Source: Haloarcula vallismortis ATCC 29715 (lineage in GTDB: Archaea; Halobacteriota; Halobacteria; Halobacteriales; Haloarculaceae). From it: a stretch of DNA of 32,976 nt. A model generated the notes under the pieces. It was not told the DNA's origin and made no database searches. It worked only from the letters and a program-made list of their open reading frames with translations. A program made the position numbers and the translations under genes. Position 1 is the stretch's first letter; the number at the start of each line of letters is the position of its first letter. Positions 505 to 27,341 of the stretch are shown here, piece after piece. The stretch is taken from positions 1 through 32,976 of the forward strand of contig NZ_AOLQ01000061.1 of assembly GCF_000337775.1 (NCBI RefSeq). The letters are read 5' to 3'.

Positions 505-1122
505 TCAGTTCACTCTATATACTTCCAGTATTCCATGGGTTCCTCGCTGATCCGGTCGGTTGTAGTACTTGCCTTCAAGTTTGTCTTGGCCCTCATCGTA
601 TTCCAAGATAGCAGTCCCATAATGTGGATCTAGCTCCTCGTTGGTGGTACTCCCATCATTCCAGTAGTTATACGAGAGTGTCGGCCATGCCTTTTCTTTA
701 ACTAGAATCGTCGCTGCTCGGCTATGTGAGGGCGACTCTGGTCCATCTAAAGATACACGTATCTTATCCCACGTCTGATTAATCTCAATACTGGTTTCTT
801 GTTTTGTCAGCCCCTCAATCTGACGTCCCTCGTCAACAATTTGTTCGTCGGGAATGAGATCCGCGTCGGCGGACGTGTACAGATACCCCTCCCATGAACC
901 ATTCAAGTTTGGAACAGCGACCAGTCCCTTATCGTGTAACCACTCCCATTCCCACAGGTACCTTGTGAATCCGATGTATAGTAATGACGAGACAACACCC
1001 AACGAGAACCCGACTATAGGACCAAAAACACTGATTCCGCCCAGATAGATTACAGCAGTAAGGATACCAATTAGAATATACCGCTGATGCCGATTCGCTT
1101 GGTCAGTGGAAAAGTTGTGCAT
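505..1122 (-). CDS. cap15: Cap15-type CBASS membrane effector
   Basis: The product is 205 residues with two hydrophobic helices at about residues 15-32 and 35-55, then a soluble beta-rich domain. That domain carries the hallmark NLNGSWEGYL near residue 73 and QTWDKIRV near 116. The order 2TM then beta-barrel matches the Cap15 (S-2TM-beta) effectors of type I CBASS. In that family the barrel binds the cyclic dinucleotide made by the CD-NTase, and the membrane helices then assemble and depolarise the cell. The ATG overlaps the end of the CD-NTase gene by 20 nt and has GAGGA three bases upstream (1126-1130), so the two are translationally coupled. No Cap2/Cap3 or Cap7/Cap8 accessory genes are next to it, consistent with a minimal type I system. 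Which nucleotide it senses cannot be read from the sequence. Confidence 0.85.
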   Translation of the reverse strand: MHNFSTDQANRHQRYILIGILTAVIYLGGISVFGPIVGFSLGVVSSLLYIGFTRYLWEWEWLHDKGLVAVPNLNGSWEGYLYTSADADLIPDEQIVDEGRQIEGLTKQETSIEINQTWDKIRVSLDGPESPSHSRAATILVKEKAWPTLSYNYWNDGSTTNEELDPHYGTAILEYDEGQDKLEGKYYNRPDQRGTHGILEVYRVN

Positions 1123-2522: not shown

Positions 2523-3383
2523 CTACTCTTCCCACCAGCGGCGGTCGCGCTCTGGGAAGACGATCATACTGTCGTAGGTAACGGCGAGTGAGCACCGTCC
2601 CTCGTACCAGTTCTTCTTGACGGCCCGCATCCGCACGGTGTCACCTTCTCTGACAAAGGCCGGCTCTGACTTGCGCCACGAGGTGAACTTGATTTTCCCG
2701 GTATCGTCCGCGATCAGGCCCACTTGAGCGATCTTCGGGCTGGAAGCATCCCAGAGCTGGACGACTTCTCCTTCGATGCTCACCTCGTCCGTCTGTACGT
2801 CCGGGACGTCCTCGATCGGGCAGATGGCGCCGGGGGCCGCCTTGAGTGCGTCCATCGTGTCGAACACTGCCTCCGTGATGTCCTGCCCCTTGGCCACCCG
2901 CTTCGCGAGTGCCCGCGAGACGGCCGCCCGACTGTGCCCGGTGCGAAGCCGCTGTGCCATCCGGTCTGCTTCCTGATTCACCTTCGCCAGCTCCATCCGC
3001 GAGAGGCGCTCGCGCGGATCCGTCCGGTCCGGGGTGCGTTCCGCCCGCTTGCGCTGCCGTCGTTCAGTGACGACCTCGCGAGTCCGCTGCGCTCGCCCGT
3101 CTTGGGTGCCGAGTTCCGCCTGGGCGCTGATGTGGTCCAGTTCGGCCTCTCGGGCGCGAATCTTCTCCTCTTGGGCGAGGGGCAGGTGCGAGAAGTCTTG
3201 GACGATCCCGTCGGGGTGGTTGGAATCCACCTTCGCCTGCTTTTCCTGCTGGACCGTCGCCCGGAATTCCGGCTGATCGTCGACGACCTCGAAGCCGTCC
3301 TCGTCGACGCCGGCGTCTTCGGTTCGTTCGAATGCCTGTTCATCCACCGTAACGACCTTGCGACTCGAGTTGTTACTAGACAT
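2523..3383 (-). CDS. OB-fold single-stranded-DNA-binding (RPA-like) protein
   Basis: The product is 286 residues. The N-terminal half is very charged and probably helical or coiled. Residues about 150-175 contain a helical segment (SRAAVSRALAKRV). From about residue 190 to 275 there is an OB-fold of the RPA/SSB nucleic-acid-binding type: VSIEGEVVQLWD, IAQVGLIADDTGKIKFTSW, VREGDTVRMRAV, and a final strand before WWEE. Haloarchaeal RPA-like proteins coat single-stranded DNA in replication and repair. On a mobile element this one could protect the transferred strand or serve replication of the element. It is transcribed alone, with a clear terminator after it and a hairpin-rich region before it. 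There is no zinc finger in the visible fold. The family assignment is good; the precise role is inferred. Confidence 0.75.
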   Translation of the reverse strand: MSSNNSSRKVVTVDEQAFERTEDAGVDEDGFEVVDDQPEFRATVQQEKQAKVDSNHPDGIVQDFSHLPLAQEEKIRAREAELDHISAQAELGTQDGRAQRTREVVTERRQRKRAERTPDRTDPRERLSRMELAKVNQEADRMAQRLRTGHSRAAVSRALAKRVAKGQDITEAVFDTMDALKAAPGAICPIEDVPDVQTDEVSIEGEVVQLWDASSPKIAQVGLIADDTGKIKFTSWRKSEPAFVREGDTVRMRAVKKNWYEGRCSLAVTYDSMIVFPERDRRWWEE

Positions 3384-3384
3384 T

Positions 3385-3417
3385 GGAGTTCACTAACTCC
3401 GAAGGCGCTCGCGCGCC
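3385..3417. repeat. Two small hairpins next to the OB-gene start
   Basis: There is a perfect 6-bp stem with a 4-nt loop, ggagtt-cact-aactcc, at 3385-3400, two bases from the start codon. A 5-bp GC stem, ggcgc/gcgcc, lies at 3404-3417. In the minus-strand transcript the first hairpin would contain GGAG, which could hide or present a ribosome site. Confidence 0.6.
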
Positions 3418-3420
3418 GCC

Positions 3421-3445
3421 ACCGCGATGTCCCAAGCATCGCGGT
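3421..3445. repeat. Perfect 9-bp hairpin
   Basis: The stem halves accgcgatg (3421-3429) and catcgcggt (3437-3445) are perfect complements around a 7-nt loop. On the plus strand the stem runs into TTTT (3445-3448), so it could act as a plus-strand terminator. No plus-strand gene ends here. Confidence 0.65.
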
Positions 3446-3479
3446 TTTCCGACGATGTCGACGACCGATAGCACCGACT

Positions 3480-3535
3480 GCGCGCTCTCGCTCGCGCCTT
3501 CGCGAGCGCCCTACCGGGCGCGAGCGAGAGCGCGC
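3480..3535. repeat. Perfect 19-bp inverted repeat
   Basis: Positions 3480-3498 and 3517-3535 are perfect reverse complements (gcgcgctctcgctcgcgcc on the left arm) with an 18-nt loop. It is the strongest hairpin in the window. It lies about 100 nt before the OB-fold gene start and inside no plausible gene. Confidence 0.75.
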
Positions 3536-3589
3536 CCGAGTGCGGCGACCCCAACCAGCACCGCGCGCCGACCTGCCCGGAGCGAGCGG

Positions 3590-3652
3590 CCAGCGGAGAA
3601 AGCGTGGGGGGTGAGCAGCCACGCCGCGCAACCCCTCGCGCTTTCCCGCTGG
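3590..3652. repeat. 14-bp stem with one bulge
   Basis: ccagcgg (3590-3596) pairs with ccgctgg (3646-3652), and gaaagcg (3598-3604) pairs with cgctttc (3639-3645). Only a bulged A at 3597 interrupts the stem. Further ggggt/acccc pairing is possible inside. It is the outermost of the row of hairpins before the OB gene. Confidence 0.65.
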
Positions 3653-3963
3653 CGTCGAGGGCACATTCACTTTAGCCCGGCAGCCCGCCCGCTACTGCAG
3701 GCAGGCAGCCCGGAATGGTCGGTCGCGAGCGACGCGGAGGGCGGCAGCGGCGAGCGGGGCGGGCCGGTACGTACACACCTGTCCAACCGGCTCTACCGCT
3801 CGGCGCAGCTACGCTCGTCCTGGTGGACTCAGAAAGGATGAGGTCGTCTCGGTCGTCCCCCGACCCCGCAAGCACCGCAGGGACGAGGAGCGCAGCGGTG
3901 GTCGCGGGATGCCGAGCGGCCGAGGGCTTTCAGGGGTCGTCTCAGTCGACGAATACAATCCGA

Positions 3964-4224
3964 TTATTGGTTCGGTGAGCCGGCCGGCTCGTCGAGAGGG
4001 ACGTCGACGCTGTCTTGGGTGACGACGAGTTGGACCTCTTCGACGGTAAATCGGACCTCCACATCGCCGGCGGAGGATGCGAGAAGTCGGTCCAGTGCCT
4101 CGACGTCGATGGCGTCGTGGAGCTGGTACGAATCGCTGGGGACCCCGTGGACTTCTAACGTCTCGACGATTTCAACGAGTAGATCGGGGGATGTCTCTGA
4201 GTCGCTGGGGGTGGAGGGTGCCAT
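3964..4224 (-). CDS. HalOD1 output-domain protein
   Basis: The 86-residue product is almost entirely a HalOD1 domain, the small haloarchaeal output domain often found as a stand-alone protein or at the end of signalling proteins. The typical pattern is visible: LLVEIVETLEVHG, a central YQLHDAIDVEALDRLL, and the strand pair VEVRFTVEEVQLVV. I chose ATG 4224. The longer frame to 4287 would add a non-acidic cysteine-containing extension. The molecular function of HalOD1 is unknown. It is probably the last gene of the small minus-strand cluster at 3964-5753. Confidence 0.7.
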   Translation of the reverse strand: MAPSTPSDSETSPDLLVEIVETLEVHGVPSDSYQLHDAIDVEALDRLLASSAGDVEVRFTVEEVQLVVTQDSVDVPLDEPAGSPNQ

Positions 4225-4308
4225 TATGACCTTGACGGGGACGTAGGGCGAGCAGGTGTTACAAATGAAGGCTCGACGGGCGGTCACCGTAGGCCTTCAA
4301 ACGGGCCC

Positions 4309-4638
4309 TCACCTGTCGTCCTGTGCGTTCAGCTCCTCGAGGTACCAGCTGGCTGCCGTCCCGATCCGAACGCCGTCGACGTTGCGCATCTCAAGCCCGT
4401 TCGTGGCGGTCCGAAACGGCTCGTCGTCGACGAGGATGCGGTGGATGACTGTCCGGACTGACTCCGCTCCGTATCTATCGACGATAGCAGCGACCGCTGT
4501 ATCGAAATGTGCGTCGTCGTGGTCGGTTCGCGGGTTCTGCGCCCGTTCGACCACGAGGTCGACCACGTCGTCGACCGATGCATGCTCGGGATCCCCGGTT
4601 TGCTCTCGTACGTTATAGCAAGGCTCAGCATCAGGCAT
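4309..4638 (-). CDS. Conserved-looking haloarchaeal protein, unknown function
   Basis: The 109-residue acidic product has no family I recognise. It appears mostly helical, with a central segment (HFDTAVAAIVDRYG, ESVRTVIHRILVDDEPF) and a C-terminal helix ending ASWYLEELNAQDD. It has one cysteine and no membrane segment. It starts 6 nt after the stop of the upstream zinc-ribbon gene, so the two are likely co-transcribed. The residue composition is typical of haloarchaeal proteins, which is the main reason to believe the gene. Confidence 0.6.
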   Translation of the reverse strand: MPDAEPCYNVREQTGDPEHASVDDVVDLVVERAQNPRTDHDDAHFDTAVAAIVDRYGAESVRTVIHRILVDDEPFRTATNGLEMRNVDGVRIGTAASWYLEELNAQDDR

Positions 4639-4644
4639 TTCGAG

Positions 4645-4995
4645 TCACTCCGTGGTGTCGTCCGTATCAATCGTCGACGGGTCTGTGTCTCGGTGCTGAC
4701 GGATCGTAGCGAGAGCCTCCTCAAGCGTGTCCACACTCTCGATCCCCGCGAGTTCATTGTTGATCTCGTCGATGAGTCCGGCACGCTCAACAGCGGTCTC
4801 GTTGCCGGCGGTCGTGTCGATCGACTCGACCCGTACCTGACGCACTTCCTGCCACCCACAGTCCCAACAGGCCCGCGTAATCTCGAGGCGCTCGTCGGCC
4901 TCGGCCGAGAGGACCGCGTCCCGAAGCGACGTCGAAAGCGGCTGCTCCGGGCCGACCTCGAGCGTGAGGGGAGCGCCGCAGGCGGGGCAGTCCAT
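4645..4995 (-). CDS. Small zinc-ribbon protein
   Basis: The 116-residue product starts MDCPACGAPL and has a second CWDC pair at about residues 44-47, giving a CPxC...CxxC zinc ribbon in the first 50 residues. The rest is acidic and helical (NELAGIESVDTLEEALATI) with a D/T-rich tail. I chose ATG 4995, so the first zinc knuckle sits at the N-terminus; the longer frame upstream has a composition unlike a haloarchaeal protein. Such proteins are common around haloarchaeal plasmid genes, but their role is unknown. It lies 6 nt upstream of the next gene. Confidence 0.65.
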   Translation of the reverse strand: MDCPACGAPLTLEVGPEQPLSTSLRDAVLSAEADERLEITRACWDCGWQEVRQVRVESIDTTAGNETAVERAGLIDEINNELAGIESVDTLEEALATIRQHRDTDPSTIDTDDTTE

Positions 4996-7393: not shown

Positions 7394-9406
7394 CTACTCA
7401 TCGAACGAAAGGACTCGCCTCGCTTTGTCAAAAGGAGACTGGTCTTCATCCCTATCTTCTTGGTTCGATTCTTGCTCCAAGCGTTCTTCGAGAGCAGTCT
7501 CCAGACGGTCGCGTTCGGAGCGGACGGTGGCGAGTTCCGTACGGACCCGGTCGACTTCTGCTTCTAGATCCTCGATTCGCTCCGATTTCTTCTCCAGTTC
7601 AGACTCGAGACGCTCAACCTTCGCTGTCAACAAGCGATTCTTTTCGCGAAGGTGAGCTCGACCCAAGTCGCCAGCTGACTCGTCGCTCGCAGAGGCAGTA
7701 GCGGGTGACTCTGATTCCTTGTCAGCCGCATTCTCATCAGGGGTAACTCGCTCTCGACCGTGTTTCAGCCCCGCCGCTTCGATGGCTTCCAGCGTCTCGT
7801 TGTATGTTTCGTAGCCGGGAAATCCCTCGTAGGTTCCATCCTCTCCCTTACGATCGACGAACGCGTCCTCGGGACAAACCTCGAGCGCGACAGCTGCTTT
7901 CCGAACGGCCCAGAAGGGCATCTGGTCGTAGGACCCGCCGTCGACACGGTCTGATCCAGCGTCCGGGATCCACACCGGGATGTCGTAGCCGGCGCTCCGC
8001 AGTTCGTCGACGGCTGCCCAGTAGTCTTCTCCATCGAGGTCCGCATCGGCGTCGGCAACGATCCCCGTCGCGAGGGCCATCAGTTTCGCCGGCCCTCCGC
8101 CGGCGTTGACTTTCGAGTCACCAAAGGTATTGGCCTGCTCGTCGACGAAACAGGATTGGCCGCTCTCGCTATGCCGCCAGCATGGGTCGAACTGTGGACG
8201 CGGCTGGTTCGGATCCGTATCGTAGGCATCACTCGCGTAGTGGCGAGCGATCTCGGTGATGTCAACCTTTTCGACGGCCTCGTAGACATCCTCTTTGAAC
8301 GGGGTAATGGGCCGTCCTTCGAGGGCACCGTTGAGTTCCTCTAGTCGCTCCTGGCGTCGCTGGAGAGCTTCCTCGCGGCGCTGCTGCCGCTCCTGTTCCC
8401 GTGTACGCTCCGCATCGGCCCACGCCTCCAACGTGTCCTGCCACCCGTCGTGCTCCTCGTAGAAATCCGGCCAGAGCGTCGCGACCAGCGAGTCGACACA
8501 GTCCGTGTGCTCGACCCGGGTGAGGTCATCGGCCCAGCTGACCGCCTGCTCGATGAGTGCGTCGTCGACGGTCTCGAAGGGACGGAGTTTGTAGCGGACG
8601 TCGTCGGTCGCGATCGGGGTGACGACGGCATCGTGGTCGGCGTGGATCGAGAGCGGCGGCTTGTACTGACGGTTCTTGTTGTTCACCCAATCGGGCTGGA
8701 TGACGTCGCCGGCGCCGTCGACGCGCTCGTTCACTCGTGTCTCTGCCTCTTGGAGCCACGCGTTCGAGCGGTCGAGGAACTCGTCGAACACCCGCTCCAG
8801 CGCGTCCGGATCGTCGCTGAAGTGATCCGCAATCGGGAGCGTAGCCTCCGGTGCTCCGAAAACGTACGCGCCTCCGACGGAATCTAGCGCATACACCGCG
8901 TCACGGGACCCATAGAGCGTCGCATACTCCTCGATGTAAGCGTCGAGTGCTCGCTCGACGAGCTCTCGGGTCTGCACGTCAAGATTGCCACGCTGGGGCT
9001 TGATGTCATCAGCAAGGTCGATGTCCCCCCACGCGGGCACCGCTCGGAGATCGACATAGCCGGGAGTCGGGGGCTCATCTTGCCAGACCGTCCTCCCCTC
9101 GGACTCGTCGTACTGACAGGGCTCCCACCGCTGGAAGGCAGTCGGTGTCTTGTAGGTGGTGACGGCGTAGAGCGTCCGCTCCAGGCGGTCGTGAATCTCG
9201 TCGTAGTCGCGATCGAGGCAGGCGACCCGCCCGCGTTGCGGATACCCCGCCTTGATGGCCCCGACGTCGTCGTGGTCGCGCTTGATGTACCACCCGACGA
9301 AGTCGTTCAGGCCGATGGTCGGATAGTCGCTGACGGTCGCCAGCGCCTCGTAGACCGGTTTGGCGTGCCGGTAGTGCTCGCGGATGGCTGATTCGGAGAG
9401 CGTCAT
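7394..9406 (-). CDS. Archaeo-eukaryotic primase (AEP)-like protein with C-terminal coiled coil
   Basis: The 670-residue product reads as a plasmid-type AEP primase. WGDIDLAD at about 126-133 gives a DxD motif I. DSVGGAYVFG (175-184) occupies the place of motif II, which normally ends in a histidine; here it is Y. DWVNNKNRQYKPPLSIHADHDAVVTPI (239-265, read as its parts NNKNRQYK and LSIHAD) resembles the motif III region. A later segment with C/H residues (about 410-450: CWRHSES, SCFVDE) resembles the zinc/PriCT part of plasmid primases. Residues about 575-650 form a long coiled coil (LESELEKKSERIEDLEAEV). It would make primers on transferred or replicating DNA. It lies 39 nt after the coupling ATPase and is probably the last gene of the transfer operon. 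The assignment rests on motif pattern only. Confidence 0.55.
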   Translation of the reverse strand: MTLSESAIREHYRHAKPVYEALATVSDYPTIGLNDFVGWYIKRDHDDVGAIKAGYPQRGRVACLDRDYDEIHDRLERTLYAVTTYKTPTAFQRWEPCQYDESEGRTVWQDEPPTPGYVDLRAVPAWGDIDLADDIKPQRGNLDVQTRELVERALDAYIEEYATLYGSRDAVYALDSVGGAYVFGAPEATLPIADHFSDDPDALERVFDEFLDRSNAWLQEAETRVNERVDGAGDVIQPDWVNNKNRQYKPPLSIHADHDAVVTPIATDDVRYKLRPFETVDDALIEQAVSWADDLTRVEHTDCVDSLVATLWPDFYEEHDGWQDTLEAWADAERTREQERQQRREEALQRRQERLEELNGALEGRPITPFKEDVYEAVEKVDITEIARHYASDAYDTDPNQPRPQFDPCWRHSESGQSCFVDEQANTFGDSKVNAGGGPAKLMALATGIVADADADLDGEDYWAAVDELRSAGYDIPVWIPDAGSDRVDGGSYDQMPFWAVRKAAVALEVCPEDAFVDRKGEDGTYEGFPGYETYNETLEAIEAAGLKHGRERVTPDENAADKESESPATASASDESAGDLGRAHLREKNRLLTAKVERLESELEKKSERIEDLEAEVDRVRTELATVRSERDRLETALEERLEQESNQEDRDEDQSPFDKARRVLSFDE

Positions 9407-9445: not shown

Positions 9446-12400
9446 CTACTCACTGGCATCACTTGCTTCCCCCTGGTCGCCGGCGTCGCACAGCTCGATT
9501 CCGACGTAACAGCGCCGCGTCTGGCCGTCCAGCCATTTCTTGTCGCGCTCGAACTCGACCCAGTCACGGAACGCTTGCGTGAACCGATTTTTCGGCTTCA
9601 CGTCGTAGCCCTCTGCTTCCGCGAACTGCTCGTAGGCGTCGTAGACGTCGGCGACTGCGACGACCCCATCGTCGGATTCGATGATGTGTTCGCGACCGAA
9701 CGCACCGATGCCGTACGGATCGTCCTCATTGTCCTCCTGAGCGACTGACTCCTCGTCAGTCCCCTGGGCCGGTTCTACGCCAGCCGGGTGAAGCTTCTCA
9801 GCATCGATTGCCTCTTTGAGCGTGGAGAGCTCCGTGGCCGTCTCCGATTCTGGCGCGTACAGCTGGAGGGCCGGCTCGTTGTCGTCGGTGAGGATACCGA
9901 TAGCGTACGAGCTCTCTGTGTAGTCTGGGACAGGGAGGTCAGTACGGGGCACGAACGGCCGCTTGACAGGCACCCAGTCCGCCTCAAATACCTCCCGTGA
10001 GTCGTAGGTCTCGGGAAGCTCACCAGGCCTGAAGACGGTATACGTCTCGCTCTCAGCATCGTAACTGTACGTCGCCGGGAACTGATCTTTCGACACGCTC
10101 TCGAAGGAGTCAACCCGAGCGTGCTGGTCGCCCGAGCCGTCCTCGAGGACGAGAGCACCGTCACGCTCGAACCAACGTGTATGGCGACTGCCGTCGCTCG
10201 CGGGACGGACGGCAGTCACGCCGTCCGCTGCTCTGGCTCCACCGTTGAATGTGACGTTGTAGTTCGTTGTATACAGCCGTGTCTCCCCCGACGAGAGGGA
10301 GTTCCGCGGCTCCTGAAGGATCTTCGCGAGCCGATTCGCGATATCGGTTGCAGGCTGGCCGTCGTGGTCTGCGACGACGAACAGCGGGACCCGGTCGTGT
10401 TCTTGGGCCTTCCGGAGGTTCGCGAGGACTTTCGCGGGCCGGACGTGGGTCGTGGTCTCGATCTCAATCTGGATCTCGGTGTCGAGGTCTGAATGCGTCG
10501 CGACGGCGTCAGGGCGAGCGTCTCCATTCTGGTCCAGCACTTCCACGGAGAACCCGGCTGTCACGAGGGCTCGTTCAACCGTTGCGAGGGCCGAGTCGTG
10601 CGCTTCTCCGCCCCCAGTCGGTGACGTTGAGGTATCTGCCTGCGCCGCCTGTTCGCCCTCGTCTGTGAGCCGACACTGGACTGCCGACGCCCCCTCTGGA
10701 AGGCCCACCTCGATCAGCGAGGATGCCTCCCGCACATCCGGGAGTGCTTCGTAGCCCTGCGCCTCGATGGTACTCTCGTCGATGCGGGAGAGGAGTTCCT
10801 CATCGACAGCCTCAACTGACACCCACCCGTTCGTCTTGCGAACCTCGTTGGACAGCTGGACGGTACGGATCGCCCGGGCCATCGCCACTTCGAGCGGCAG
10901 TTCGTCAGCGTTCTCTAAGGCGACGTCAGTCGCCGCGTCACGACTCTCGACAGTCGTCCCGCCGGCGACACCATACTCCTCACGAGTATGCTTGTGGACC
11001 GTCTCCAGCGCGTCTTGGAACCGTTCCTCTTCTCCGGGGGTCAGCGGCCGGTCGCTGTCGGGATGACCGGGCGGAATCGGGAGCGGTTCGATGCTGAACG
11101 GGTCCGGACCCGTTTCGCCGAATTGTGGGCTCGGGAGTTGCGCGATCCACTCGCCCCGCGGGAGTGAACTGATACGGTTCTTGAACTCGACCGGGTCCAT
11201 CGCCTCGTGTGAGAGTGCTTCGGCGATGTCGGCGTCGACGGCGATCTTCCCGACGAGGGGGCTGCCGATGTTGTTCAGGACGTTTAGGTAGACCTCGCGG
11301 TTCCCCGCTTCCTTCATCTGCTCGGGGAACTGCGTCACGAGTTCGATCGAGAGCCGGAACTCTCGTCCCTTTTCCAGCAGCGTTGTCAGCGTATCAGAGA
11401 CGACGACAGACGACGCCTCGTCGATGAGCAGATTCGCCACGTAGTCATCCGGCTTCCGGGCCAACTCGTCGCCGTCGCGACGCTTGACGGCGTCGTACAG
11501 CTGCGTGAGAATGACGCCAGTCATCACACGGGCGGCCTCGTCGCGAAGGTCGCCCAAGTCGAAGATCACCACCTTATCCTCGTCGAGGAGTTCGCGGAAG
11601 TCGAACTGCGACTGGGTGTTGTTGAAGATTCGCCGGAGATGGGCGTCTTGCGTGATGTAGTCCATCCGGTTGCTGATGCCGCTCACGACGTTCGAGAACG
11701 TCGCCGGATTCGAGCGCAGGTGTCGCTCCAGTTTCTCCGCGACCTGCGGGTCGCTGGCTCGCGGTGCATCCTCGGGTGTCGGCTCCGGCGGGCCGGCGGC
11801 GTGGAACTGGGTGACCGCGTGTTCGAGTTGATCGTGGGTGAAGTAGTTCGTATCCTGTCGGAAGTGCCCGTTTTCGAGACCGTACTCCTCGTCGTACATC
11901 GCCTTGATGAGGTACTTGATGAGCGTCGGCGAGGCGATGGCATCCTCGTACCGCTCCGGCCCCATCACGAGCTTAATGAGCTCCTCGTAGTGGTCGGCCT
12001 TGTCCTGAACCGCGTCGACGCGTCGGACGCCGTCCTCCAAGGCCGGCGTGATGTCGAAGAACGCGAAGCCGGGCAGGATATCGGGGACCGAGAAGTGGAG
12101 GACGTTCTCCTCGAGGTCGTCGGTACCGAAGCGCTTCGCGTGAGCCCGCATATAGTTCTCGGGGAAATTCCCGCCCTTGGAGTCGATGATGAACACCGGC
12201 CCGTTCGTCTGGTCGTACAGCGAGAGGGCGTCGTTTTCAAGCGCGACAGACTTGCCGGCGCCGCTCTTGGCGAACCGGCCGACATGGAACGGGAGCAGAT
12301 GTGGGGGAATCCGCATCGGCTCTCGTGTCGGCGTGCCGTCCTCGCCGAGACCACGGCCGATTGCCATACCTCGGTCCGTGAACGCCTCCATATGGTCTTG

Positions 12401-13822
12401 TGACGGGAGCGGGAGTGGCGTTCGACTCTCTGGTTCGGCATCGGAACCACGACCGCCTTCGGTTGTGAGGTCAGTCGCTGGCGGAACGACGACGAAGTTC
12501 GCTAACTCCGCCGGTCCGAGGACGAGATCAGGACGCGTCTTTCGCCAGTCGCTCTTTGCTGCGATCTCGGCGTTGAACACCCGGTCGGCGTGCTTCCTAG
12601 CTCGCCGTCCTTTCCGGAGTCCACGACGCGCCCGCTTGGGGCGAAGGCGATAGTGTGACCCGTTCAGGTGGTCGAACACCGACCCGATATCGTCGAGGCG
12701 GTGGTCGACGCGCTCCCGCTGCTGGTCCGTGGTTACCAGCGAAAGCGCTCGCATATTCACCGTAAACGTATGCTGTGGTTCTTTCTCGTCGATGGAATCG
12801 ACTCGCTCCCGACCACCGATGTCGAGGTATCGGCGCTGTCGACCGGTGTTCGAGGGGCTCTGTGGTTCATTCTCCGTGTTTCCGAGGAGTTCCCCGAAGA
12901 ACCAGTCGACAATCCGATCCTCGCCCTCGCGAAGTTTCCGCTGGCGCTCCCGAGCTTCGTGAGTCCAGTCAGGCTTCCGTTGGAAGAGTACCTGAAACGC
13001 GATTGGGTGTTCGGCCCGGGTTAGCTGATCGATGAGTGATGCGAGCGGCGCTCGTGCGTGGTCGTCGTCCTCATCTTCCGTGTTCGTGAACTGGGGTAGC
13101 GTCGTCATCCAGTCCTCGCGACGGGTAGCCCGCCCGTGCCAGGTGATTCCGAGCGGCGTCGTGTCGTCGATACTCAGCTGTGAATGCTCCGGCTGGTGGT
13201 CGACGTCGGGCCCAGAGTCGGACGAATCACTCGTCGTAGGTTCGTCACTCGATCCGGTTCCGAACAGTACTTCGGCGTCGTCCTGCGACGTGGTGCTATC
13301 TGAGACCACGCTTCCGCCGTCACCAACTGGCTCCTGGCTCGTCGTGTCCAGCGGCGTCGCGGGTTCCGAATCTGGCTGGGAGGTATCGCCGGTCTTCTCA
13401 GCCGTTCTGGTAGTCGTCTCGTGCCGGTTGTCGCCCCCGACACTACTGTCGTGAGCTTGCTTTGCTGGTGAGGGAAGCAGCTTCGTCTCTAGGTCGAGTG
13501 TCACCCGCTCAAACGTCACGGTCGGCGGATACAGCGTCCGAAGGCGCTCTTCGAGAGCATCGATCCGTCTATCCGCGCCGTAATAGAACTCGACCGGCTC
13601 GTCTTTCCCTTCGCTCACCGCGAGGAATTCGAATACTGGTGGTGGATTGCCGAAGGGACCGATACTGTCGAGAAGCCCGTCGTTGCCGGCGTCCAGCCCG
13701 TGGAGGCCAGCCAGTTGGCGGACGACGGTCTCCGGCGCGAGGTCACTCCGAGAGGGAGTGATCCGGATATACTCGACGCCGCGATCTGACCCCGTGGGGT
13801 CTGATGGGTGGTTCTCAGTCAT
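9446..13822 (-). CDS. VirD4/HerA-type conjugative DNA-translocation ATPase with C-terminal nuclease-like domain
   Basis: The 1458-residue product is probably the element's coupling protein. The ATPase core has Walker A GRFAKSGAGKS at about 515-525, FIIDSKGGN after it (a usual VirD4/TraG feature), Walker B NLLIDEAS at about 797-804 and a sensor strand LVTQFPEQ near 829. The first 250 residues include a low-complexity S/T/D linker. Past the ATPase lies a PD-(D/E)xK-like region (PDAVA near 1104, IQIEIET near 1117-1123, then a KVLANLRKAQ helix). The C-terminus (about 1373-1446) resembles the winged helix at the end of D5/P4-type primases. ATG 13822 was chosen because it overlaps the VirB4 stop by 8 nt (ATGACTGA); the frame extends to 14050 only as antisense-like sequence. 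It should pump DNA into the T4SS channel. Confidence 0.75.
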   Translation of the reverse strand: MTENHPSDPTGSDRGVEYIRITPSRSDLAPETVVRQLAGLHGLDAGNDGLLDSIGPFGNPPPVFEFLAVSEGKDEPVEFYYGADRRIDALEERLRTLYPPTVTFERVTLDLETKLLPSPAKQAHDSSVGGDNRHETTTRTAEKTGDTSQPDSEPATPLDTTSQEPVGDGGSVVSDSTTSQDDAEVLFGTGSSDEPTTSDSSDSGPDVDHQPEHSQLSIDDTTPLGITWHGRATRREDWMTTLPQFTNTEDEDDDHARAPLASLIDQLTRAEHPIAFQVLFQRKPDWTHEARERQRKLREGEDRIVDWFFGELLGNTENEPQSPSNTGRQRRYLDIGGRERVDSIDEKEPQHTFTVNMRALSLVTTDQQRERVDHRLDDIGSVFDHLNGSHYRLRPKRARRGLRKGRRARKHADRVFNAEIAAKSDWRKTRPDLVLGPAELANFVVVPPATDLTTEGGRGSDAEPESRTPLPLPSQDHMEAFTDRGMAIGRGLGEDGTPTREPMRIPPHLLPFHVGRFAKSGAGKSVALENDALSLYDQTNGPVFIIDSKGGNFPENYMRAHAKRFGTDDLEENVLHFSVPDILPGFAFFDITPALEDGVRRVDAVQDKADHYEELIKLVMGPERYEDAIASPTLIKYLIKAMYDEEYGLENGHFRQDTNYFTHDQLEHAVTQFHAAGPPEPTPEDAPRASDPQVAEKLERHLRSNPATFSNVVSGISNRMDYITQDAHLRRIFNNTQSQFDFRELLDEDKVVIFDLGDLRDEAARVMTGVILTQLYDAVKRRDGDELARKPDDYVANLLIDEASSVVVSDTLTTLLEKGREFRLSIELVTQFPEQMKEAGNREVYLNVLNNIGSPLVGKIAVDADIAEALSHEAMDPVEFKNRISSLPRGEWIAQLPSPQFGETGPDPFSIEPLPIPPGHPDSDRPLTPGEEERFQDALETVHKHTREEYGVAGGTTVESRDAATDVALENADELPLEVAMARAIRTVQLSNEVRKTNGWVSVEAVDEELLSRIDESTIEAQGYEALPDVREASSLIEVGLPEGASAVQCRLTDEGEQAAQADTSTSPTGGGEAHDSALATVERALVTAGFSVEVLDQNGDARPDAVATHSDLDTEIQIEIETTTHVRPAKVLANLRKAQEHDRVPLFVVADHDGQPATDIANRLAKILQEPRNSLSSGETRLYTTNYNVTFNGGARAADGVTAVRPASDGSRHTRWFERDGALVLEDGSGDQHARVDSFESVSKDQFPATYSYDAESETYTVFRPGELPETYDSREVFEADWVPVKRPFVPRTDLPVPDYTESSYAIGILTDDNEPALQLYAPESETATELSTLKEAIDAEKLHPAGVEPAQGTDEESVAQEDNEDDPYGIGAFGREHIIESDDGVVAVADVYDAYEQFAEAEGYDVKPKNRFTQAFRDWVEFERDKKWLDGQTRRCYVGIELCDAGDQGEASDASE

Positions 13823-15908
13823 CCTCCTGTTGAGCAGTGCTGGTTGGGCCCCCACCGTCGGCACGAGCGCCGGCCTGCCGGCTGTCGGGGCTCGCCACAC
13901 TGGCGCTGGATCCGGTCTCGAGTTCGGCCACGTCCGCCGCACCGCCGTCGATGACATGGGCCTCGTAATCACTTGCCCGAATCCGGAGCGGGAACCATCC
14001 CTCCTGGTCGATTCCCACGAGCGCTTCTGAGTACCCGTCTTCGTCCTCACCGGCTTTCGCGGAGGTAACCCAGTTTACCTGCCGTTCGCTGAGGTCAAAC
14101 CACTTGGCGATCTTCTCTTTCTCCTCGTTGACGCGGTGAAGGACGGTCAGCGAACAGAGGTTTGCGATGGTTCTCGCCTCCGGCGTCAGCGCGAACTCAC
14201 CCCCCGTTTGCGTGATGAATTCGAGGCTCAGGTCGAAGTGGCGACTGTGTCGGACGGCCGTCTCCAAGAAGTCCAGCGAGACGGCATCGTTCATCAGGTA
14301 GTGCGCCTCGTCGATACAGAAGACGACGCGCTTGTCGGTCTGCTTGACCCGCTCGTAGACGCTGTTGAACAGCACCTGCATCATAAGGCTGGTCTCCGCC
14401 CGCCCACGGGTGCCTTCTTCCTGATGGAGATCGAGGTAGATGACCTTCGAATCAAGGTCGAATTCGGAGGGTCGAGCCAGATTCTCGAGTTCACCGCCTT
14501 CGCGGAACGACGGTCGGAGGTCCTTGAGCAGCGACTGCGCATCGGACTGGACGGCTTCCTGCTCGCCATCAGTGACGTAGCCGTACTCCTCTGGATCCTC
14601 GACCATCTCCTCGAGGACTTCAATGACGTCGTGGATTGTCGGTGAATCCCGGGTGTGTGTCTCTGGATCCCTGGTGATGCCGCGCTTCTCGTAGGCTTCC
14701 TGGACGGCCCGCCGGAGCGTCTGGTTACGCTCACCGAGCGGGTGGTCCGCGACGTGCTCGAAGAACGTCGCGAAGAAGGTCATCACCCAGTTGATCTGCT
14801 CGCCCCACGGGTCGATGTCGTCGACCTCCTGTAGGACGTGGTCGGGTGTCGGCTTGATCTCCAGTGGGTTCAATCCACGCCGACCACCGACCGTGACGCG
14901 CTCGCCATCGAGCGCCTCGTTGACGCCGGCGAACCCTCGCATCGGGTCGAGCATAATGATGACCGTATCCTCGTCGAACATCGCCCGCCGCACCAGCCGG
15001 AGCTTCGTTGCGAAGGACTTGCCCGCACCGAGGCGGCCGATAACCATCATACAGTAGCCGGTTTGTCGCTTGAACCGGTCGAGGATGAGCGGGCTCGAAT
15101 TCAGCGCGTACGTCCCGTACTCGATGCCGGGTTCAGCAAACGCACCGGAAACGAAGGGGAACATCGCGCCGACAGCACCGCCAAGCATCGGCGTCTTGCT
15201 GTCGAGCGTCTCGTTGAATTGATCGAGGGCGATTGGACTGGCTGAGGTGAACGTCTTCAGCTGGGACCACCGCGGCGTCACCGGCGTCAGATTCGCGGGG
15301 GCCTGCCGGGCAGTCGTTGACACCGACTCAGTGTCGACGTTATCGCGCTCGTCGCCTCTGACCGTGAGGTACGTCGAGACGTCGAACGCCTGCATCGTCG
15401 TGTTCCTGAGGACGTCGTACATCTCCTGGTGGTCCTCTAGGTCTTTCTCGACGCCGCGGGCGCTCGCACGATGCTTCTCGGTCAGGTATTCGTAATCGGC
15501 TTCAAGATCCTCGATCTTGTTCTCCAGCGAATCCAGCGTCTCCCGCGTGTCGCGGGGGTCGATATGGATGCTGATGTCCGTTTGTTGGGTCTCGGCGGCG
15601 GCGTACAGCTTCTCAAGGAAGCCGTCCATCGGTGCATCCGGATACTCTCCGACCCACAGGCTCTGCGCCCACTGATTGTCCGTCCGGAGAGCACTCGGCG
15701 TCCGTTCGATGCTGGATGGTGAGACGACGGTCTGGTGGATTTCGGGAATACCGTCGACTGCCTCACCGTCCCGCTCGTAGGTGACAGTAAGCTGCGACTC
15801 GTCACCGTCTGCGTCCTGCTCGTCAGGCGTCTCATCTTCAGATGTCTCATCGTCGTCGTTGGCTTCCGAACTGTTCGAGCCGGTGAAGGGGAGCAGGTTA
15901 CGAATCAT
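13815..15908 (-). CDS. virB4: VirB4-type T4SS ATPase
   Basis: The product is 697 residues. Walker A GRLGAGKS is at 291-298, followed by a conserved LDPMRGF strand near 320. Walker B VVFCIDEAH is at 528-536, and FITQTGGEF follows. These spacings and motifs fit the VirB4/TrbE/CagE family that powers pilus assembly and substrate transfer at the inner face of the membrane. Residues 17-40 are an acidic linker and about 121-160 are coiled coil. The usual N-terminal domain of VirB4 is short here and seems to be supplied by the preceding gene. The ATG overlaps the previous stop by 4 nt (ATGA). Confidence 0.85.
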   Translation of the reverse strand: MIRNLLPFTGSNSSEANDDDETSEDETPDEQDADGDESQLTVTYERDGEAVDGIPEIHQTVVSPSSIERTPSALRTDNQWAQSLWVGEYPDAPMDGFLEKLYAAAETQQTDISIHIDPRDTRETLDSLENKIEDLEADYEYLTEKHRASARGVEKDLEDHQEMYDVLRNTTMQAFDVSTYLTVRGDERDNVDTESVSTTARQAPANLTPVTPRWSQLKTFTSASPIALDQFNETLDSKTPMLGGAVGAMFPFVSGAFAEPGIEYGTYALNSSPLILDRFKRQTGYCMMVIGRLGAGKSFATKLRLVRRAMFDEDTVIIMLDPMRGFAGVNEALDGERVTVGGRRGLNPLEIKPTPDHVLQEVDDIDPWGEQINWVMTFFATFFEHVADHPLGERNQTLRRAVQEAYEKRGITRDPETHTRDSPTIHDVIEVLEEMVEDPEEYGYVTDGEQEAVQSDAQSLLKDLRPSFREGGELENLARPSEFDLDSKVIYLDLHQEEGTRGRAETSLMMQVLFNSVYERVKQTDKRVVFCIDEAHYLMNDAVSLDFLETAVRHSRHFDLSLEFITQTGGEFALTPEARTIANLCSLTVLHRVNEEKEKIAKWFDLSERQVNWVTSAKAGEDEDGYSEALVGIDQEGWFPLRIRASDYEAHVIDGGAADVAELETGSSASVASPDSRQAGARADGGGPTSTAQQEDD

Positions 15909-16918
15909 GGGTTGGTGATGACGGGGGAGGTGCGAAGCACCTGTTCAGGGTTGCCGTACTCGATCTCCGTGCCGGTCCAATACTCCGCGATAAGACGGGT
16001 GAGCTCGGCCGCATCGACGGGGCGAGTATCACACCCCTCGATGCCACGGAGGCCTCGCTCGACCCGCCGGCGACGCTCGTCCAATTCCTCGAGCATCGCG
16101 GCGCGCTCTTCCTCCTCCGGCGGCGCCGTGACGATCTGGATAAGGATACCCAGCACTGGGATTCCAGCGAGCTTTTCGAGCAGGCTGGCCCGCTCGTACC
16201 GGACCTCCTCAGGTCGGACCGGGATGAGGACGTAGTGGTCACGGATGGTCATCTGGCGCTGTGCGAGCTCCCGGTCGTACCAGTCGACGTAGTGCTCGAT
16301 GAGCGCCTGCAGTCTCTCGTTGGATTTGACGTCCGGGTCGCTCAATCGGTCCTTGTACCGCCCAACGTACTCGTCGGCAGGGAACGACTGCGTTGTGGAA
16401 TAGATCTGAATCGGGAACTCGACGGTCGTATTGACGAAGTCTTGGAAGGCCTCCGTCTTCTGTTCCCATTCCTCGTCGGTCGCCAGCGCCATCGTCGGCG
16501 GTGACACCTGTACTGCGCCCACAAGAGCCCGGTCGGTCCGCTCGATAGCGTCGTGTCGCGGATACACTCGTTCGACGTGGGTGTACTCCTTCGCGTCCTC
16601 GTGGGCAATCTCCGTCTCGCTGCGATGGAACCCCACGAACGTTCCGAGCCAGTCGAGGCTGTTGGTATACCCAGGCGTGAGGTAGACGAACAGGCCGCCG
16701 AAGGCGATCGCAATTGCTGCGACCGGAATGGTCAGCGCGGATACCGGGATGCCGCGAACGGTGAGTGACGGTGGGATGACGACCTGCGTCACTAGGACCA
16801 CCAGGACGCCGGGAAGCCCTGCGACCGCGAGATCCGTCAGCGAGTACTTCCCGAGGAACTGGGTGTCGGTACCGAGCGACTTCGGAATTCGTTTCGCGGG
16901 GTCAGTTGCGGAGCTCAT
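15905..16918 (-). CDS. VirB3/PrgI-like membrane protein with VirB4 N-domain-like part
   Basis: The product is 337 residues. Two transmembrane helices near residues 30-48 and 56-82, joined by a short loop, follow a KYSLTDLAVAG segment like that in PrgI/VirB3 proteins. The cytoplasmic remainder (about 110-337) resembles the N-terminal domain of VirB4: a strand-helix pattern, a DHYVLIPVRPEE strand near 227-238 and a charged EEEERAAMLEEL helix near 268-280. It likely anchors the VirB4 ATPase to the membrane. It sits between the VirB6-like and VirB4 genes, overlaps VirB4 by 4 nt and follows VirB6 by 3 nt. The family call is by topology and order, not by a diagnostic motif. Confidence 0.65.
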   Translation of the reverse strand: MSSATDPAKRIPKSLGTDTQFLGKYSLTDLAVAGLPGVLVVLVTQVVIPPSLTVRGIPVSALTIPVAAIAIAFGGLFVYLTPGYTNSLDWLGTFVGFHRSETEIAHEDAKEYTHVERVYPRHDAIERTDRALVGAVQVSPPTMALATDEEWEQKTEAFQDFVNTTVEFPIQIYSTTQSFPADEYVGRYKDRLSDPDVKSNERLQALIEHYVDWYDRELAQRQMTIRDHYVLIPVRPEEVRYERASLLEKLAGIPVLGILIQIVTAPPEEEERAAMLEELDERRRRVERGLRGIEGCDTRPVDAAELTRLIAEYWTGTEIEYGNPEQVLRTSPVITNP

Positions 16919-16921
16919 GGA

Positions 16922-18280
16922 TTAGTGAATGTATCGCGGAGGGTCGTCTCTCGACTCTCGATCCCGACTCTGGCGTTGCGGATCACGGAAAGCGTCGTCT
17001 CGTTCGAACTCTCCGCTCTCGTCCTTGCCGCCGTCCTCACCAGAGCCGGCATTGGCGGTGGACCCACTACCGCCACCACCAGAGCCGCCTCGGCCGCCGC
17101 CTTCGCCGCCGTCCGTAATCGCGTCGCGAAGACGGGAGCCGGTCGTGTTGAGGCGTTGGCCGGTAGCGTGCGCTCTGGAGTCACCGGAGTCCAGTACGTA
17201 CTGCCCGCCGCTCTTGACGGCCGGTTCGTCGCGTACTCCCCGGACGAAGTTCTTCCCCCCCTGAGTTGCCGACTGTACCCGTTCCCGACCTCTCGACAGC
17301 CGCCCACGAGCCTTCTGTGCCGAGACATGCCGAGCCGCCCGATCAGCGATGAAGAACAGGGCCCCTGCCTGCCAGAAGAGGATGAACGGCGACGCCACGG
17401 CCACCAGCGGGATGATGAGCGCTGTCAGCCACGCCCCGAACTCACCTGCGGAGGGGCCGATACTGGTCCCGAGGATATCACCTAGCCGGAATAGAAGGGC
17501 AACTGGAACCGTCATAAACAGGAACGGGACGTAGAACCCCGCGAGCTTCTTCATAAACTTCGAAGCCAAGGCGAAGGGACCGACTCCGGGAATCCAGAAG
17601 ACGATGAGCAGCGGCATCAGAAAGACGAACAGGTAGAGTGCGAGGTGACGAGCGAGATAGATCAGACCGATGAGAACGAACAGGATGAAGTTCGTCGACA
17701 GGGCGACGACTATGCCGAGGACTCCCATCGTCGAGAACGACAGGGTCTGGAAGAGGGTGATATCGGAGACAGAGGGAACAAGGAACCCCGCCAAAGCATC
17801 GATAAACCGCAGCGAGAGGGCTGCGATCCACCACCACGACAGGATGCCAAGTAGACCCGAGAAGGCCCGTTTCTTCAGCTTCGAACGATGATAGCCGTTG
17901 AACAGGTGGCTCGTCGACTCGAGGAAAATCACAATTCCAATAGAGAGTCCATACAGCGTGAGAGTGAGCGGGATCATCGTCTCCCAATAGAAATCGTAGA
18001 TTCGAGGCCAGGCACCGTTCGAGGGAGCACTGAACACAGAATCGGGGTGTGGGGTTCCCACGACAGTTCGGAGAACCGCATCGCCGTGATTCTCGATGAC
18101 CGTCCGGATCGGGCTAAACAGAATCCGGAGCAATTCCTGAATTGCCCCGATAATGATATCACCAAGAGCACCTCCATCGCCACCCCCGTCGCTTTGTGCA
18201 GCCACTGGAACCGGTCCCAAACCCACTAATCCGACAACTCCTGCAACAGCGGAGAGTAATCGTCGACGAACCCTACGCAT
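16922..18280 (-). CDS. VirB6/TrbL-like polytopic membrane protein
   Basis: The product is about 452 residues: a signal peptide with basic start and AAQS cleavage site, then at least five or six hydrophobic helices between about residues 100 and 325 (for example LTLTLYGLSIGIVIFLE, GLLGILSWWWIAALSL, LYLFVFLMPLLIVFW and LTALIIPLVAVASPFILFW). After these comes a long soluble glycine- and charge-rich tail. This is the architecture of the VirB6/TrbL channel component of T4SS. The tail may contact the ATPases. ATG 18280 was chosen because it overlaps the lipoprotein stop by 8 nt (ATGCGTAG); a longer start at 18295 is possible. Homology to VirB6 is by topology and gene order. Confidence 0.7.
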   Translation of the reverse strand: MRRVRRRLLSAVAGVVGLVGLGPVPVAAQSDGGGDGGALGDIIIGAIQELLRILFSPIRTVIENHGDAVLRTVVGTPHPDSVFSAPSNGAWPRIYDFYWETMIPLTLTLYGLSIGIVIFLESTSHLFNGYHRSKLKKRAFSGLLGILSWWWIAALSLRFIDALAGFLVPSVSDITLFQTLSFSTMGVLGIVVALSTNFILFVLIGLIYLARHLALYLFVFLMPLLIVFWIPGVGPFALASKFMKKLAGFYVPFLFMTVPVALLFRLGDILGTSIGPSAGEFGAWLTALIIPLVAVASPFILFWQAGALFFIADRAARHVSAQKARGRLSRGRERVQSATQGGKNFVRGVRDEPAVKSGGQYVLDSGDSRAHATGQRLNTTGSRLRDAITDGGEGGGRGGSGGGGSGSTANAGSGEDGGKDESGEFERDDAFRDPQRQSRDRESRDDPPRYIH

Positions 18281-19175
18281 CGTCACCACCACCACTCAGT
18301 AGCTCAATGTCGACGTTCTTGCAGGGATGCTGAACGGCGGCCTGATCATCGATGTGGTAACCACCGGATAGATCAGCGCGAACCGGCTGTTCAATATCAC
18401 CGTGTGGGGTCTGGACGACAACAGTCAGTTCGATAGAATCCCCCTCACACGAAACCGAATCGTCGTCACTGATGATCAGGACTCCACGTCCCTTCAGGAA
18501 CCTCTGCTCTGTGTCGGGCTGAAGGAATTCCTGTTGCGGGTTCTGAGGAAGTTCAAATCTCGTATCAGCGACTCCGTCACCTTCGATAACCTCTGGGGCA
18601 TTCGAATACGGGGCGTTTCGGAACCCAATATTGTAGACCCACGTCGGTCCAGGGCCGGTATTTTCAACCGTGACGAACAGCCGCCCGGTACTATTCTGGT
18701 CGTCTTCATCGACCTCTGGTTGGACATCAGCGACGCTAATCTCCGGTTGGAGGTCAATTGACATCGTATCCGAAGACTCGCCCCGGACGGCGACCAGTTC
18801 GTATTCACCAGTATCGTAGGAGCCGCCGGATTTGTACAGGATCTGGAGTTCTGCTGTCGTTGCTCCTTCCGCAACTGCTGTTTGTTCAAACGTGCTTCCG
18901 TCCTGGGCAATCAGATTGAGACGGTCGACATCGTGATCCTCAGTTAGGTTCACGACAAGGTTGGGGCCCGAGAATTCGACTCCCTTGAACACGGAATCTG
19001 CTGGCGGTGACGGTGAACCTGTGGACGATTCCGTCCCATTGCTGGGGTTGTTTGTCCCTGAACACCCGGCGACGCCGGATAAGAGAGCAGTAGCAGACCA
19101 GGTTATGAGACGGCGTCGGCTGATGGATCGTTTCTCTTTTCGGTCGTGGGGTGTAGGATTGTTTCTGGACATCAT
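18273..19175 (-). CDS. Tat-exported lipoprotein of the transfer operon
   Basis: The 300-residue product begins with a twin-arginine signal: SRRRLITW at residues 19-26, a hydrophobic stretch, and the lipobox GVAGC with the modified cysteine at residue 38. An S/T/P-rich linker then leads to a beta-rich extracellular domain. Tat plus lipobox is the common export route in haloarchaea. Its place between the surface protein and the VirB6-like gene suggests a channel or mating-surface role, as for the outer VirB7-like lipoproteins, but no homology is claimed. ATG 19175 was chosen because it overlaps the upstream stop by 4 nt; the much longer in-frame extension lacks signal features. Confidence 0.72.
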   Translation of the reverse strand: MMSRNNPTPHDRKEKRSISRRRLITWSATALLSGVAGCSGTNNPSNGTESSTGSPSPPADSVFKGVEFSGPNLVVNLTEDHDVDRLNLIAQDGSTFEQTAVAEGATTAELQILYKSGGSYDTGEYELVAVRGESSDTMSIDLQPEISVADVQPEVDEDDQNSTGRLFVTVENTGPGPTWVYNIGFRNAPYSNAPEVIEGDGVADTRFELPQNPQQEFLQPDTEQRFLKGRGVLIISDDDSVSCEGDSIELTVVVQTPHGDIEQPVRADLSGGYHIDDQAAVQHPCKNVDIELLSGGGDDA

Positions 19176-20875
19176 AGTGACCTCCATGGGGGCCAAATCC
19201 GCCAGCCGGTGATGCGGTCGACAAAGAAGACCGCTAAGAGGAACAGCGAGACAGGGACGCCAATTCGGAAAAGCATCGATAGGATTTGGAGTACCGTCCC
19301 CTGCAGCAGGACGGTATCCGAATCGCCGGTATAGCCCGGTGGGTTGAGCCACCAGTGGCCGGGTTCATATCGCGCCGACACCCCGCCAGGAGGGCGTTCA
19401 AGCGTCGTCGTGACGGTTCCGTTGCCGGTCGTGTTCAACCGCTGTCCGTCGACGACGACGTATCCGTCCCGTTCGTCGGTGTTGATTGGGGCGCCAGTAT
19501 CCGCGTTCTGGAGGGTGACCCGGACGGTGACGCTGTCTTCGGTCTGATTCACTACTTCCAGAGTGAGATCGCTCTCGTAGATCTGGATCCGAGCGAACTC
19601 ATCTGCTGGCCGTTTTGCCTCGACTCCTCTAACGAGTCCCCACGCGCGGACGGTTTCGGGTTGCTCGTCGGTCGTGGCGCGTGTTGCGATGCCGTAGCTG
19701 GCCGTGTACGGTTCAGTAAGGATGTCCAAGTGAACGTCCGACGGGAGAGTCGGCGGCGACGTCGACGTGCCGTACACGTCCAGTATCGTCACATTCCTCC
19801 GGGGCGACGGAGTTGGTCCTGTCTCGATAGGGTAGGCGTTCACCTGGAGCGGATGAAGCGGTGAGTGGGCGGTTCGCTCTCCATCGTCTGAGCTGTAGAC
19901 CAGCGTATCCCAGTCTTTGTCCCGGGCCGAGTAGAACCGCCAGACGCCCCGGACGTCACCGTTGGGCAGCTGGTAACCGAGCCACGGTTGATTCTTGTAG
20001 ACGACGAGGCCGAGATCGCCGTTCGGATACTCGGCGATGAATCCGGAAACCGCGAGATTGTACTTTGTGACCTCGATGGAATCGGTCACCGAGACGTTCT
20101 CGGTGGGGTATGAAACGGAACTCTCCCAGTTGGTGCAGTCGCCCTCGTCGTTGTGGACGGTACAGACTTCGACCTCCTTCCGGAGCCGGACCGAGATGTT
20201 TGCCTGGAGCGTGAGACGATGCTCCTCGCCAGCGTAGCCGTCCAACGTGTATGACAGCGCCGGCGTATGAGAGCCGCCAGCCGTTGTCTCCTCATCACCG
20301 TCGACGAGCAGTTTCGTCTCCTCGACTTGGTGGCTCTCGAGACTCCAGTAAACGCGACGATCGCCAGAGGTGTCGTCTCGCGGTACTGCCACTCGGTAGT
20401 CGACAGTTCCGCGGAGCGTCCCGTTTGGAGCGACGTAGAGCGGCTGCCTAGACGACGAGAGCCGTGCTCGCGTGGAGGGTTGGGCGGCGAACACCTCAGC
20501 GTAGGCCTCCTTGATGAATCGTCCGCTGGAAAGGTCCGCATCGGGCGGGTGGATCGACACCGAGCTGTTGGTCGCGGGGAACTCCTGGTGATCGCCCCGG
20601 TTCCATTGCTCGACGGCCTCTGGCGGTGAGTCAAATGGGACATCGGTCCCTTCGCCCAGCTGCTCGACCGCCGACCCGTTACTCAGATTCGCACCGTCGG
20701 TCGCGCCGTCCTGATCCCCCGACCACAGTTTGTGAAAGGTCTCCTCCGGGACGCCGTGGTCGGTACTGTTCGGGGGGTGTGCGCCCACTGGCACGACGGC
20801 TGTCGATGCGACGAGGACGGCGGTCATGACGAGTGCGAATCCTTGTGCGTGGTTAGAATCCACAACTCGTGCCAC
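19172..20875 (-). CDS. Secreted, C-terminally membrane-anchored surface protein
   Basis: The 567-residue product starts with an export signal (ALVMTAVLVASTAVVPVGAH) and ends with one transmembrane helix near residues 537-553 plus a basic tail, so most of it faces outside. The extracellular part is beta-rich, with glycosylation-type N-x-S/T sites such as NLS, NSS and NVS. It contains one cysteine pair, CTVHNDEGDC (about 251-260). I recognise no family. It belongs to the transfer operon and may form part of the mating-pair interface or protect the pilus. Start codon: GTG at 20875 and GTG at 20863 are possible, and both overlap the pilin stop. ATG 20827 would shorten the signal peptide. Confidence 0.65.
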   Translation of the reverse strand: MARVVDSNHAQGFALVMTAVLVASTAVVPVGAHPPNSTDHGVPEETFHKLWSGDQDGATDGANLSNGSAVEQLGEGTDVPFDSPPEAVEQWNRGDHQEFPATNSSVSIHPPDADLSSGRFIKEAYAEVFAAQPSTRARLSSSRQPLYVAPNGTLRGTVDYRVAVPRDDTSGDRRVYWSLESHQVEETKLLVDGDEETTAGGSHTPALSYTLDGYAGEEHRLTLQANISVRLRKEVEVCTVHNDEGDCTNWESSVSYPTENVSVTDSIEVTKYNLAVSGFIAEYPNGDLGLVVYKNQPWLGYQLPNGDVRGVWRFYSARDKDWDTLVYSSDDGERTAHSPLHPLQVNAYPIETGPTPSPRRNVTILDVYGTSTSPPTLPSDVHLDILTEPYTASYGIATRATTDEQPETVRAWGLVRGVEAKRPADEFARIQIYESDLTLEVVNQTEDSVTVRVTLQNADTGAPINTDERDGYVVVDGQRLNTTGNGTVTTTLERPPGGVSARYEPGHWWLNPPGYTGDSDTVLLQGTVLQILSMLFRIGVPVSLFLLAVFFVDRITGWRIWPPWRSL

Positions 20876-26351: not shown

Positions 26352-26434
26352 AATACGTGGATTGCTTGAACGTTCCGCTGTTTCGGATTACAGATCATAG
26401 GAGGATATGCCGAGATGAAATGAGAACGAGAATT

Positions 26435-27271: not shown

Positions 27272-27341
27272 CTGTTCTTGTCAGAACACCCGTCCGAAAA
27301 AGAAATATTGGTTATTGAACTCAACCTTTGCGGGTAATCGG

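Follow-up and report, generated by a model that had tools for sequence, protein, structure and literature searches.

We propose that the VirD4/HerA-type ATPase of 1458 residues encoded at positions 9446-13822 of a contig from Haloarcula vallismortis ATCC 29715 is a type IV coupling protein (T4CP) with a built-in nicking nuclease that would replace a relaxase, a reading suggested by sequence, structural models and analogy and to which we give an even chance of being right. The contig (NZ_AOLQ01000061.1; 32,976 bases, analysed whole and called the window here) belongs to a haloarchaeal genome of 3.9 Mb. The C-terminal tail of the protein is, by its sequence and modelled fold, a strong candidate for the transfer-initiating enzyme that seems to be 'missing' from archaea, and the cautious suggestion in a preliminary description of this DNA, that the tail could cut DNA or guide it and so spare the system a relaxase, is supported. 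Of the three findings that by that description would have spoken against it, a fold unlike a nuclease, unconserved acidic residues and a relaxase elsewhere on the element, none was made, the fold being nuclease-like in a model of low confidence. Archaeal conjugative plasmids have no recognised relaxase (PMC12857230, PMC9905601), and archaeal relaxases of unknown type have been suggested to exist (PMC3158045). If true, our proposal would explain why archaeal conjugative elements seem relaxase-free and would provide a one-protein solution linking nicking to pumping; it singles out one candidate, and within it D1105, E1120 and E1122, on a motor family whose VirD4 relatives occur in 131 of the 194 haloarchaeal genomes sampled and 55 of 65 genera.

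Architecture of the coupling protein

The gene and the domains of its product are as follows, with the basis of each assignment in brackets.

9446-13822, minus strand: VirD4/HerA-type coupling ATPase with a winged helix-nuclease-linker-D5 winged helix tail, 1458 residues (open reading frame, Pfam, full-length homologues)
11108-12325, minus strand: ATPase motor, residues ~500-905 (Pfam matches and invariant residues)
10643-10906, minus strand: first winged helix, residues ~973-1060, ending 'RLTDEGE' (position and 'LTxxG' wing motif, a sequence reading)
10310-10612, minus strand: PD-(D/E)xK-like nuclease core, residues ~1071-1171 (invariant residues, AlphaFold2 (AF2), Foldseek)
9728-10300, minus strand: linker domain ('mid'), residues ~1175-1365 (profile matches in classes A and D, defined below)
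9485-9727, minus strand: C-terminal D5/RFX-type winged helix, residues ~1366-1446 (Pox_D5, AF2, Foldseek)

The reading frame is unbroken from its ATG start, overlaps the end of the VirB4 gene by 8 bp, and has full-length homologues in many haloarchaea. Within the motor we find a Walker A motif (GxxxxGKS, residues 517-525), a Walker B motif (LLIDE, residues ~798-802) and Pfam matches to T4SS-DNA_transf (PF02534; residues 693-872, 22.2 bits against a cut-off of 20.1), to TraG-D_C (residues 798-872) and, under cut-off, to DUF87/HerA (residues 513-774). With a PF02534 domain over its curated cut-off and VirB4/VirB6 genes encoded alongside, the protein is a T4CP of the VirD4/TraG kind. The Walker A/B motor, encoded directly after VirB4, is shared with VirD4/TraD-type coupling proteins and HerA ATPases, from which the protein differs in adding about 550 residues of DNA-binding and nuclease-like domains; the preliminary description had recognised this extension and put it at about 600 residues. 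By inspection, the N-terminal part is also unlike the membrane anchors of typical T4CPs.

Relatives were placed in four classes: A matches over the full length, B up to residue ~956 and C over residues ~220-960, while D has its tail in common with A but a different N-terminus and motor. An alignment of about 46 tail homologues, with 25 representatives below 85% identity, divides the tail into a winged helix, a nuclease-like domain, a linker and a C-terminal winged helix. The first of these parts, which the preliminary description had missed, is read from its position and an 'LTxxG' wing motif that also occur in class B/C tails and in TraX, a relaxase considered below. Profile matches to the linker are found in class A and D tails only, with none in B or C. 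The AF2 model of the whole tail is poor apart from the C-terminal winged helix (pLDDT 72-90), which matches RFX DNA-binding domains in Foldseek (E 1.4e-4 and 1.1e-3, TMt 0.76-0.80) and, just under cut-off, Pox_D5 (PF03288; residues 1380-1439, E 5e-4, 20.9 bits against 21.4). The model and the RFX matches confirm the winged helix seen in the preliminary description, which may be of the D5/P4 primase type. Since some homologues already carry the PGAP label 'primase-like DNA-binding domain-containing protein', this winged helix alone is not new.

The strand set 'PDAVA...IQIEIET', earlier picked out as PD-(D/E)xK-like, is present, and its acidic residues D1105, E1120 and E1122, like H1075 and K1131, do not vary among the 25 representatives. 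In the PD-(D/E)xK superfamily the core runs alpha-beta-beta-beta-alpha-beta, and neighbouring strands bear D and (D/E)-x-(K/E), a pattern that the residues and the modelled topology fit. Modelled alone, the domain gave a core pLDDT of 70-87 and a pTM of 0.52, its elements following the order helix-strand-strand-strand-helix-helix. Foldseek placed Hjc at the top of the PDB matches, the small number of others with probability >0.1 including EcoRV and DdmD, and against viral models the best-probability named match was a PD(D/E)XK endonuclease (0.77), with a VRR-NUC protein, nucleases and a Holliday junction resolvase (Hjr) as further named matches. Because the matches from the two libraries agree in kind, being mostly PD-(D/E)xK enzymes, the predicted nuclease fold is partly established, at low model confidence. 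As no relatives were found in the viral contigs and phage genomes searched, we rejected the idea that it is a viral module.

Tails on different motors

The class B and C tails seemed at first unrelated, yet on reading they consist of a winged helix ('YTVLPxGR') and, after it, a nuclease-like module whose H, D, E-x-E and K retain the class A order in 49 of 49 sequences. A first profile comparison of the class A and B/C modules was borderline (E 0.013, a score also reached by 2 of 100 shuffled controls); once the class A-type sequences were more diverse, the E-value improved to 1.7e-4, and none of 100 column-shuffled controls scored as high. The module also stands at the end of T4CPs of 842-892 residues outside Halobacteria and on shorter chromosomal T4CP-like proteins inside Halobacteria, versions in which D and E-x-E are kept and K1131 is lost in some. 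Every class member retrieved has a tail, the exceptions being genes interrupted by a frameshift or cut short where a contig stops. Judged from these sequences, the tail is general to haloarchaeal VirD4 proteins and extends beyond Halobacteria, and is not peculiar to this element. The motor tree unites class A with B (100/99) and C, but the class A tail subtype, made up of nuclease, linker and D5 winged helix, recurs in class D behind another motor; motors thus seem to have swapped tails, not lost them.

Two divergent class C-like tails, at loci L112 and L113, have E-x-V in place of E-x-E and D in place of K, and are possibly inactive versions of the nuclease. Locus L187 encodes (2566-4899, plus strand) a 778-residue protein with the class A nuclease, linker and D5 winged helix but no motor, behind a different N-terminal half.

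Relaxases in haloarchaea

The claim that the transfer operon lacks a relaxase was borne out, as none was found in the operon or in the window, and a search for HUH or MOB relaxases also drew a blank elsewhere in the genome and on two complete related plasmids. In particular, HUH relaxases (MOBP/F/Q/V; a three-His motif with a catalytic Tyr) were not found in the window or on related plasmids, families PF03432, PF08751 and PF02486 have no member in this genome or in any of three records of complete related plasmids, and PF13814 (Replic_Relax) gave nothing over cut-off across 59 genomes. Among the uncharacterised genes of two complete class A plasmids, no HUH gene was detected by profile, and neither a relaxase family nor DUF7845 appears among the 25 of 31 families shown; both plasmids carry Orc1/Cdc6 genes.

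HUH relaxases do occur in haloarchaea, in 15 of the 194 genomes and 6 of the 65 genera, where their genes adjoin a T4CP, for example on Haloarcula pNG500. The T4CP is without a tail in all 14 HUH loci examined, and conversely an HUH gene is present in none of 38 tailed loci (8-44 kb), the T4CPs of the two kinds forming separate clades (100/100). The systems are alike in having a conjugative operon with VirB4 and a T4CP, and H. marismortui pNG500 (locus L128) differs in its separate HUH relaxase, two small accessory genes and a 738-residue T4CP without a nuclease tail. This contrast in gene content is supportive of a tail that stands in for a relaxase, not proof of it.

On pNG500 (14157-17969) the HUH relaxase, annotated 'hypothetical protein', lies with two small upstream genes and the T4CP, and MOB-suite classifies the plasmid as non-mobilizable. 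At locus L160 (6854-8923, plus strand) one open reading frame joins an HUH domain (residues 5-134) to a coupling ATPase (residues 275-556), and is a predicted natural relaxase-T4CP fusion in a haloarchaeon.

A model for transfer without a separate relaxase

In the model that we favour, both winged helices would recognise a site on the element DNA, and the PD-(D/E)xK domain, through D1105, E1120 and E1122, would nick one strand with metal ions. The attached VirD4 motor would then pump the freed strand through the VirB4/TrbL channel, and would need no separate relaxase. The nicking would accordingly be metal-dependent and site-specific, the DNA would be transferred single-stranded, and the strand would presumably be rejoined in the recipient. 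It has a little less than an even chance, in our estimate, that a winged helix and PD-(D/E)xK module on the C-terminus of a coupling ATPase constitutes a new type of relaxase, used by most haloarchaeal and some other archaeal systems. No description of a T4CP-nuclease fusion was found in the literature searched, in which subscription journals were mostly outside coverage.

The closest precedent is that of the MOBC relaxases, PD-(D/E)XK enzymes that carry a winged helix at the N-terminus and for which a covalent intermediate has not been observed; one of them, TraX (pAD1/pTEF1), initiates transfer (PMC12857230). An enzyme of this build can therefore set conjugation going, apparently with no covalent intermediate (PMC12857230). 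The tail resembles this group (TraX, MobC of CloDF13; PF13814) in its winged helix with an 'LTxxG' wing, its H, D and E-x-E and its basic helix, and the TraX sequence follows the same order, LTxxG - H - D - E-x-E. TraX is a separate protein of 261 residues, whereas the tail module is fused to a T4CP and followed by further C-terminal domains. Profile comparison of class B/C with TraX is significant over the winged helix only, the tail has no match to PF13814, and the CloDF13 record examined yielded no recognisable intact MobC frame. As the similarity to TraX and PF13814 is not significant, we do not claim the tail as a MOBC family member; by analogy it may work like a MOBC relaxase, sequence homology between the two not being established. 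The tailed T4CP also recalls HerA-NurA, in which a hexameric-type HerA-like motor is likewise linked with a nuclease, and differs from it in that its nuclease is covalently fused, after a winged helix. NurA is a separate protein, with a different fold.

Several results weigh against the model of a nicking tail. A search for an origin of transfer (oriT) gave weak repeats only, none of them convincing, and the class A nuclease did not match TraX significantly in profile comparison, even with an extended profile. Because the HUH-associated and tailed T4CPs are two clades, the contrast between them counts as a single evolutionary event. Transfer of these elements is not demonstrated in the literature searched. 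The best Foldseek E-values of the nuclease domain (0.15-0.36) are not significant singly, its sequence has no significant match in PDB searches, and a weak Pfam match to a B12-binding domain (E 5.6e-4, under cut-off) points to another fold. These last results would suit a domain that is not a nuclease at all, with a coincidental motif in a Rossmann-like or other alpha/beta fold. We regard this as very improbable, given that it is exactly the D and E-x-E that are invariant, that the same residues are kept in the divergent class B/C tails, and that independent Foldseek lists are topped by PD-(D/E)xK enzymes.

A more serious alternative, which we nevertheless hold to be unlikely, is that the tail is active as a general end-processing or strand-degrading nuclease that prepares or protects the transferred DNA, and is not a site-specific nickase. 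PD-(D/E)xK domains are frequently non-specific, exonuclease VII subunits are encoded upstream in close relatives, and generation of single-stranded DNA by HerA-NurA is the published proposal for DNA transfer and import in archaea (PMC9905601). A resection enzyme, however, needs a pre-existing break, and no other nicking candidate is recognised on the element; the flanking of the nuclease by two DNA-binding winged helices and the match of domain order and residues to MOBC relaxases also speak for nicking. Somewhat less probable again is a tail that is inactive in vivo or serves mainly to dock DNA, with nicking left to an unrecognised relaxase such as a Rep-Arvir/DUF7845 protein or a host enzyme. 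DUF7845 (Rep-Arvir) initiators do exist on some archaeal conjugative elements (PMC13107129), some genes of the class A plasmids are still uncharacterised, and the L112 and L113 tails are without the second E and the K. Yet nearly every tail keeps the acidic residues unchanged, no further gene in the core common to classes A, B and D is nuclease-like, and the two complete plasmids yielded neither DUF7845, among the families shown, nor an HUH gene.

Transfer operon and neighbouring genes

The T4CP gene belongs to a minus-strand operon whose order, from two uncharacterised conserved proteins through TrbL/VirB6, a TrsD-like protein and VirB4 to the T4CP, is common to class A, B and D relatives. 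The remaining operon genes, and one further gene, are listed here.

19172-20875, minus strand: second conserved transfer-operon protein, function unassigned (synteny in classes A, B and D)
18273-19352, minus strand: conserved transfer-operon protein, function unassigned (synteny in classes A, B and D)
16922-18295, minus strand: VirB6/TrbL-like membrane protein (TrbL_3, E 1.1e-16)
15905-16918, minus strand: TrsD/VirB4-N-like transfer protein (NF041427 TrsD, E 2.9e-6; syntenic in classes A, B and D)
13815-15908, minus strand: VirB4-type ATPase (NCBIfam VirB4 models, E 4.8e-50)
2523-3383, minus strand: OB-fold DNA-binding protein (Ssb-like OB, E 1.1e-3)

The OB-fold gene has a counterpart 50-97% identical in class A, C and D loci, and its product is possibly a relaxosome accessory protein. 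Downstream of the T4CP gene, 7394-9406 (minus strand) encodes a protein of 670 residues that has a C-terminal coiled coil, is annotated 'ZapB' in one relative, and is archaeo-eukaryotic primase-like in its N-terminal part, with DxD and SxH-like motifs seen by eye; we dropped it as a nicking enzyme as it is confined to the closest class A subclade. The large subunit of exonuclease VII is encoded just upstream of the operon (22764-23816, minus strand), adjoined in relatives by the small subunit, which is unusual company for an archaeal transfer operon. A two-gene CBASS-type pair at 505-2044 (minus strand), a CD-NTase cyclase (PADLOC, E 2.6e-99) with a Cap15/2TM effector (E 1e-121), shares the contig with the transfer genes and is not common to the relatives compared. 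At 25116-28670, mutually adjacent genes for a CoiA-like protein, an HNH nuclease with a C2H2 finger (a weak ZorE-like match) and a Schlafen AlbA_2 protein are possibly defence or competence-like cargo.

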